A DNA stretch of 64,000 bases from Gemmatimonadota bacterium. Its GTDB lineage: Bacteria > Gemmatimonadota > Gemmatimonadetes > Gemmatimonadales > Gemmatimonadaceae. The stretch covers positions 1 to 64,000 of the forward strand of contig JAPLKU010000004.1 of NCBI GenBank assembly GCA_026387935.1. The letters are read 5' to 3'. The position numbers and the translations under genes were made by a program. The notes under the pieces are model-generated. The model saw nothing but the letters and a program-made list of their open reading frames with translations. It was not told where the DNA came from and did not search any database. This document shows, one piece after another, positions 44,263-54,919 of the stretch; position 1 is the stretch's first letter, and each line of letters starts with the position of its first letter.

Positions 44263-44335
44263 TGGGGTGTAGCTCAATCGGCAGAGCGCCGCACTGTTAA
44301 TGCGGATGTTGGTGGTTCGAGTCCACCCGCCCCAG
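44263..44335 (+). tRNA. tRNA-Asn (anticodon GTT)
   Basis: A 73-base cloverleaf. The acceptor stem is 44263-44269 with 44328-44334 (one G-T pair), the discriminator G at 44335. AGCTCAATCGGCAGAGC forms the D arm, the anticodon GTT lies at 44296-44298 in loop CTGTTAA, and GTTCGAGTC is the T loop. CCA is not encoded. A strong terminator follows 14 bases on. Confidence 0.97.
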
Positions 44336-44348
44336 CGTTCGGCATAAG

Positions 44349-54377: not shown

Positions 54378-54587
54378 CGTCTTACGGTTGACCATGTGCG
54401 TGGCCGGCACGCCGTCGTCCCGATGGGCGGCAGCGCCTCCATCTGGTAGATCGCTGCACGAATTCGATGTCGCAAGCGAGGGAATGTTGACGTGTCCCTG
54501 CGGAGGCAACCCTACCTTGGCCATCGACTCGCAGCGCGTGCATCACAGTGCACGCGTCGTTTTCACCGACTCTTCGGTGACGACCCG

Positions 54588-54671
54588 GCCTGGGTGGTGG
54601 AACTGGTAGACGCGCGGGACTGTGGATCCCGTCCTCTAACGAGGGTCCGAGTTCGATTCTCGGTCTAGGCA
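54588..54671 (+). tRNA. Class II tRNA with leucine-type body and GTG (His) anticodon
   Basis: An 84-base cloverleaf: acceptor stem 54588-54594 with 54664-54670 (two G-T pairs), discriminator A at 54671, D arm with the GTGGAACTGGTAGACGC pattern typical of tRNA-Leu, perfect anticodon stem CGGGA/TCCCG (54615-54619, 54627-54631), loop CTGTGGA with anticodon GTG at 54622-54624, a long variable arm (54632-54646, stem CCTC/GAGG) and T arm CCGAG-TTCGATT-CTCGG. A true bacterial tRNA-His has a short variable loop, an extra G at -1 and C73; none is present. One base change (T54623 to A) would give the ordinary Leu anticodon GAG. It may insert leucine at His codons, be a regulatory tRNA, or be an inactive copy. 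A class II tRNA is certain; its amino acid is not. Confidence 0.8.
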
Positions 54672-54720
54672 GGGGCGAGTCGCTGTTGACGGCATCACGC
54701 AATCGCGACAACGTTCAGTT

Positions 54721-54745
54721 CTCGTTAGAGGACAGTGGTTCACAG
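54721..54745 (+). other. Trailer element complementary to the upstream tRNA
   Basis: These 25 bases pair with 54620-54643 of the tRNA (anticodon loop, 3' anticodon stem and variable arm). There are 13 contiguous Watson-Crick pairs (54631-54643 with 54721-54733), then a one-base bulge, then 10 more pairs (two of them G-T) with one mismatch. Sequences on both sides of this segment show no similarity to the tRNA, so it is not simply an inverted duplicate of the whole gene. In the primary transcript it could compete with tRNA folding. Confidence 0.7.
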
Positions 54746-54749
54746 CTTG

Positions 54750-54790
54750 AAACGGGGTAGCGCTATTCACACGCGCTACCCCGTTTCTTG
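54750..54790 (+). terminator. Intrinsic terminator of the class II tRNA transcript
   Basis: A perfect 14-bp stem (54750-54763 with 54773-54786, AAACGGGGTAGCGC) with a 9-base loop followed by a T/C-rich stretch. It sets the trailer of the tRNA at about 80-115 bases. Confidence 0.9.
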
Positions 54791-54919
54791 TCTTCCCTCC
54801 TGCGGCGACGAACGAGACAGTTGGCCGTGGAGGTGCGTTTTCGCTATCTCTGACAGGCGGCCCAGCCGCGCACCCGCCTAAAAGCCGTCCATAGGCCGCC
54901 CACGCCGGAGCAGACGATC

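Follow-up and report, generated by a model that had tools for sequence, protein, structure and literature searches.

A leucine-type tRNA gene with a histidine anticodon and, directly downstream on the same strand, a predicted small RNA complementary to its anticodon region form a two-RNA locus in the window (the whole 64,000-nt stretch of Gemmatimonadota DNA that we analysed). The architecture of the locus, the matched complementarity, the promoter and terminator signals and the retained leucine identity can all be read from the DNA itself. Our preferred reading, to which we give roughly an even chance, is that the pair forms a toxin-antitoxin-like module made of RNA only and serving addiction or abortive infection, in which a leucyl missense tRNA would be the toxin and the antisense RNA would mask its anticodon. 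That such modules constitute a widespread RNA-only toxin-antitoxin class directed against abundant codons, with Gemmatimonadota, Planctomycetota and tailed phages as its carriers, is a broader claim that we hold tentatively, at slightly less than even.

The tRNA occupies 54588-54671 of the forward strand, an assignment based on ARAGORN, Rfam family RF00005, orthologues, covariation and identity positions. ARAGORN called tRNA-His(gtg) at exactly these coordinates, and the RF00005 match scored 45.5 bits against a gathering score of 29, in agreement with the initial annotation, which had described a complete class II, leucine-like cloverleaf with a GTG anticodon. The gene has a 7-bp acceptor stem, a 4-bp variable arm and a leucine-type D arm (GGTGGAACTGGTAGACGC), and its anticodon loop, CTGTGGA, places GTG at 54622-54624. 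Both class II leucine identity elements, A73 (at 54671) and U48, the partner of A15, are present, and GTG stands where a leucine anticodon would be NAG or YAA. The G-1:C73 pair and class I body of tRNA-His are missing, as had been noted from the outset: base 73 is A, not C, and the body is class II. The serine identity and the 8/4 or 9/3 acceptor/T branch of allo-tRNAs are likewise missing; the acceptor stem is 7 bp, with A73, in 39/39 tabulated copies of the gene, and the T stem is 5 bp in the covariation set.

The source genome (28 contigs, 2.8 Mb, 95% complete) yielded 50 tRNA matches above the Rfam cut-off, and 48 distinct tRNAs were read. The listing of its tRNA-Leu and tRNA-His genes that had been called for revealed one normal class I tRNA-His with C73 (L007) and five normal tRNA-Leu genes (CAA, CAG, GAG, TAA and TAG). 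The GTG leucine-type tRNA is therefore an additional gene, and the normal tRNA-His rules out a role as the sole decoder of histidine codons. A search of related genomes for the same gene, also proposed at the start, recovered GTG orthologues in three congeners, with compensatory stem changes that rule out a sequencing or assembly error in the anticodon. The window also holds a tRNA-Asn at 44263-44336; the second tRNA-Asn of the genome (L025) has a quite different body.

The closest sequences to the window tRNA are those of the three congeners (G001, G003 and G010, all GTG) and one from another genus of the family (G029, GCG). The tRNA alignment contains compensatory changes in the acceptor, anticodon, variable and T stems, with two-sided changes in 11 pairs and 99.2% of cells paired, a level reached in 0/500 shuffles. 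A silent copy, one of the alternatives raised initially, is unlikely given the covariation seen over many genomes. To survey the phylum we used a pattern consisting of the leucine D arm and an anticodon without A35, with D arm and anticodon-loop shape fixed, which matched in 20/179 genomes of the family and 33/395 of the phylum; the reversed control pattern had no match in the family and phylum tables. Thus, about 8-11% of the sampled Gemmatimonadota genomes have leucine-type tRNAs with non-leucine anticodons, almost always within the two-RNA arrangement, although a few of the phylum-wide matches (L129, L139, L140) are of another kind and most copies come from fragmented draft MAGs. Anticodons found with the module were GTG, GCG, CGC, GGC, GCC, GTC, TTC and CGG, to which a separate search added CAC and GAC, such that related subfamilies vary among His, Arg, Ala, Gly, Asp, Glu, Pro and Val. 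We had considered an avoidance of conservative substitutions, visible as a lack of valine anticodons; a search directed at valine anticodons found them with the module and disposes of this idea.

In E. coli, leucylation is independent of the anticodon and relies on A73 and on tertiary contacts, among them A15-U48 (PMC9976931). Since A73, U48 and a fully paired acceptor (7/7 pairs) are kept in 39/39 tabulated copies, window-type tRNAs are probably charged with leucine. U33, R37 and A14-A15 are also kept in all 39 but belong to the search pattern, which A73 and U48 do not. The earlier proposal of a leucine-identity tRNA with a histidine anticodon is thus supported by the identity positions, the separate tRNA-His and the orthologues. 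The codons that these tRNAs would read are mostly common ones. Ranked by use among the 55 non-leucine codons (29,908 codons of predicted ORFs in the source genome), GCG (Ala), GGC (Gly), GCC (Ala) and CGC (Arg) stand first to fourth, GTG (Val), GAC (Asp) and CCG (Pro) fifth, sixth and eighth, and GTC (Val), GAA (Glu) and CAC (His) 14th, 18th and 31st. High-GC composition accounts for part of this anticodon bias; still, none of the three GC-only anticodons for less-used codons (CCG, CCC, GGG) occurred with the module. If unmasked, a leucyl missense tRNA would be expected to be harmful, which fits a guarded toxin.

The antisense segment lies at 54718-54749 of the forward strand (complementarity score 19.9), where 54721-54733 is complementary to the variable arm of the tRNA and CACAG at 54741-54745 to its anticodon loop. 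Across copies, the complementary stretch lies within about 45-100 nt downstream of the tRNA and its partner is either the loop and anticodon stem or the loop and variable arm. Cognate complementarity averaged 15.9 (n = 33 copies) compared with means of 8.8 when tRNA and segment were non-cognate and 8.6 after shuffling, using scan ranges that, as for the promoters below, were picked after the sequences had been inspected. Scores fell between 10 and 20 in 32/33 copies, the lowest true copy (L123) scoring 10.3, and the highest values among ordinary tRNAs were 12.0 (47 tRNAs of the genome) and 11.9 (42 tRNA-Leu). Together, the non-cognate, shuffle and ordinary-tRNA controls rule out chance complementarity. 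The segment tracks the anticodon through GTG, GCG, CGC, GGC, GTC, TTC and CGG, and copies with valine anticodons (GAC, CAC) likewise have a matched antisense. The exception is L116 (G156:C110), an intact leucine-type GCC tRNA with a mismatched downstream segment, possibly a switch in progress, a recombinant or an assembly chimera. Its downstream stretch resembles the antisense of a GTC copy (L243).

The antisense would be carried by a small RNA of about 75 nt (54721-54795, forward strand), whose ends are predicted from the positions of a promoter and a terminator. The sigma70-like promoter spans 54686-54714, with TTGACG at 54686-54691, a 17-nt spacer and CAACGT at 54709-54714. The -10 of this copy is poor, and the promoter does not appear in a generic scan that requires 4/6 matches in each hexamer. 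In the wider set of 39 elements, TTG and A2/T6 were found in 39/39 and the 17-nt spacer in 35/39. Because the promoter score rewards exactly these features (TTG, A2, T6 and 17 nt), comparison with shuffles is the fair measure, and by it 38/39 elements reached at least the 95th percentile. The promoter scan gave mixed results when anchored at the start of the extended alignment and was later anchored at the longest exact complementary core; the -10 ends 5-8 nt before this core in 31/39 elements. As the promoter directly precedes the antisense stretch, that stretch coincides with, or adjoins, the point where the small RNA is predicted to start. A Rho-independent terminator follows at 54749-54787 on the forward strand, with a hairpin (GAAACGGGGTAGCGC...GCGCTACCCCGTTTC) and the T-rich stretch TTGTCTTC; a stricter scan, in which the loop is at most 8, does not list it. 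Terminators were found in 29/39 elements compared with 3% of shuffles, and promoter-to-terminator distances predict small RNAs mostly of 65-80 nt in these 39 elements. Promoters, terminators and structure support the prediction of two adjacent non-coding RNAs.

The first of these RNAs would begin upstream of the tRNA, with a structured leader of about 60 nt (54526-54587, forward strand) that is supported by folding and by an alignment of 10 leaders. The 5' strand of helix P1 (54526-54531) is followed by hairpin P2 (54535-54556), hairpin P3 (about 54563-54580) and the 5' strand of P4 (54584-54586). The 3' strands, placed by pair counts at 54673-54681, lie beyond the tRNA: P4, a short extension of the acceptor stem, is completed at 54673-54675, and P1 is closed by CGAGTC at 54676-54681. 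Over 10 copies, the leader-tRNA structure has two-sided changes in 26/47 pairs and 97.9% of cells paired (0/500 shuffles); P3, known from folds only, was left out of these counts. P2 has two-sided changes in 7/8 pairs and is 100% paired in the 10 leaders, helix 1 is paired in 96.7% of cells, and the acceptor together with P4 in 95.5%. The P2 loop carries CACAG (54544-54548, forward strand), the complement of CTGTG in the anticodon loop. The four GTG copies have CACAG and the six GCG copies CGCAG, matching CTGTG and CTGCG, so that the one variable loop-anticodon pair is A-U in the former and G-C in the latter (10/10 paired). In other subfamilies, leader complementarity to the anticodon loop is less regular.

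A putative promoter of the leader-tRNA unit lies at 54485-54518 of the forward strand (TGTTGACG, a 20-nt spacer and TACCTT), and the motif TGRTGACG-N20-YANNNT precedes the leader in many Gemmatimonadaceae copies. A TGATGACG-like element (at least 6/8) followed by N20 and NANNNT was found in 16/44 elements, compared with at most 5 at any other spacing from 12 to 27. Relaxing the match to 5/8 gave 23 elements (next best spacing 12, shuffle mean 4.4). None of the genome's 47 ordinary tRNA genes has the motif; it has 23 matches genome-wide and alone is therefore a weak signal.

These features suggest how the locus may work. RNA 1 would be the structured precursor, which, once transcribed, would be matured by RNase P and CCA addition to a tRNA that LeuRS would charge with leucine and whose anticodon would read a non-leucine codon, histidine in the window. 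RNA 2, the small RNA made from its own promoter immediately downstream, would pair through its 5' region with the anticodon loop together with the stem or variable arm next to it, leaving the tRNA unable to decode; in the window's subfamily, the leader loop that matches the anticodon is probably a further lock within the precursor. Because both the small RNA and the leader loop are complementary to the anticodon region, decoding by the window tRNA is probably blocked most of the time. If transcription stopped or the locus were lost, the short RNA would decay, the stable tRNA would be freed and leucine would be misincorporated, with toxic effect. The missense suppressor first suggested for this gene, if taken as free-running, thus falls short as a full account, the tRNA being one half of a two-RNA locus whose leader, downstream promoter, antisense segment and terminator had gone unnoticed in the initial annotation. 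Some observations weigh against the toxin-antitoxin reading. An intact tRNA with no matching antisense, as in L116, is unexpected unless it is silenced otherwise, the P4 extension of the acceptor might hinder RNase P processing, and the GTG anticodon of the window reads a codon of middling rank, part of the overall bias being due to GC composition.

The pairing is what visibly covaries, and this might be expected if the two RNAs formed a regulatory pair without decoding, the tRNA-like domain acting as a stable scaffold or a sponge for the small RNA, or the small RNA for it, with the anticodon loop as no more than a pairing seed. The nesting of the tRNA in P1 and P4 of a larger RNA, and copies in which pairing is mainly with the variable arm (L186, L338), are in keeping with such a pair. 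We nevertheless regard it as unlikely, at perhaps one chance in five, since decoding and charging features (A73, U48, A14-A15, U33 and R37) are all retained and the anticodons read common codons.

Similar modules were found in two Gemmatimonadota records at chromosome level (CP070666, CP070792) and in at least two Planctomycetota-labelled MAGs (L156, L186), as well as in MAGs labelled Zixibacteria (L208) and Chloroflexi (L196) whose sequences look Gemmatimonadota-like, so that these two labels may be wrong; matches outside Gemmatimonadota are lower bounds. An alphaproteobacterial candidate (L219, score 14.4) was left uncounted because its flanks lack a clear promoter. Among the IMG/VR matches listed, L338, L284 and L304/L388 combine a leucine-type GCC tRNA with a complementary downstream stretch, and L388 encodes a portal and L304 a major head protein; most phage leucine-type tRNAs with other anticodons among those matches have no antisense. 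On the reverse strand of L304/L388, about 250-800 nt into L304, leucine-type tRNAs with GCC and ACC anticodons stand in a tandem array, and behind each one lies a segment that complements its variable arm, as GCTGGTCGCCG does CGGCGACCAGC. Gene neighbourhoods differ among the five closest copies, and no conserved chromosomal site was seen for them. No partner family is shared among the 82 flanking ORFs, in which only common Pfam families recur (PD40 in 7/82, kinases in 3), and a PADLOC defence search of these ORFs gave, among the families shown, only kinase-type matches, in 3 members. Patchy presence, differing neighbours, truncated copies and modules on phage contigs speak for the toxin-antitoxin reading.

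The same patchiness, together with the free switching of anticodons, does not fit a conserved proteome programme, as would be expected if leucine were deliberately placed at certain codons under some condition and the antisense were an off switch with no killing. Such regulated mistranslation would account for the fully kept tRNA structure and for the different promoter-like motifs of the two units (N20 spacing for the tRNA unit, N17 for the small RNA), and we consider it improbable, though worth keeping in mind. More doubtful still is that the locus is a mobile or phage-derived tRNA element in decay, now without function in the source genome. Broken copies do exist (L264, L266, L179 and L118, in which the T arm is interrupted, the 3' half is lost, in two, or the 5' half is lost), as do copies on phage contigs, but in the window and in its congeners all helices of the element are preserved, with compensatory changes. 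A plain missense suppressor or extra tRNA with incidental downstream complementarity is very improbable, since complementarity is far above controls in 32/33 copies and positioned at a promoter, even if other phyla and phage contigs do have antisense-less leucine-type tRNAs with non-leucine anticodons. Among the matches listed, many such tRNAs were seen (L141-L258 and IMG/VR loci), with anticodons TGG, TTA, CTA, GTT, TCC and others, including stop-codon anticodons.

Type I antitoxins of the sok kind are likewise short antisense RNAs that stand guard over a stable RNA, the mRNA for a toxic peptide; the target in the module would be a tRNA. Our search of the open-access literature turned up no bacterial tRNA gene accompanied by an antisense RNA of its own directed at the anticodon, nor do we know of one. 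The nearest relatives among toxin-antitoxin systems are of type VIII (creTA, SdsR-RyeA), in which both partners are RNAs and the creTA RNAs may share a strand (PMC10767807). Here, too, two RNAs predicted from sequence lie side by side within 200 bp, but the toxin would be a wrongly decoding tRNA, the antitoxin would pair directly with the anticodon region, and there is neither a CRISPR effector nor an opposite-strand overlap. It is by analogy with type VIII and type I systems that we favour a toxin-antitoxin or abortive-infection role. Allo-tRNAs (Mukai et al., 2017) also combine one identity with many mismatched anticodons, and a link of some irregular ones to transposons or toxin-antitoxin systems has been suggested (PMC7609411). 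They are serine-type with 8/4 or 9/3 branches, whereas the module tRNAs are ordinary 7/5 leucine-type, and the section of that review devoted to them mentions no antisense RNA or anti-anticodon leader (PMC7609411). The nev-tRNAs of nematodes, leucine-type with a long variable arm and a non-leucine anticodon, are leucylated in vitro without detectable mistranslation in worms (PMC4300185); these are eukaryotic, and no antisense partner is mentioned in the abstract.

The module thus appears to be an RNA-only system of a kind not described before, for toxin-antitoxin action or for guarded mistranslation. If toxicity is borne out, it would best be placed as a new class among RNA-RNA toxin-antitoxin systems. 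If the masking works, the module would be a simple means of switching codon meaning with two RNAs, and would offer a natural reason for tRNAs with mismatched identity and anticodon, which could be stored, guarded weapons and not decoding errors. The module makes the purpose of mismatched tRNAs a testable question.
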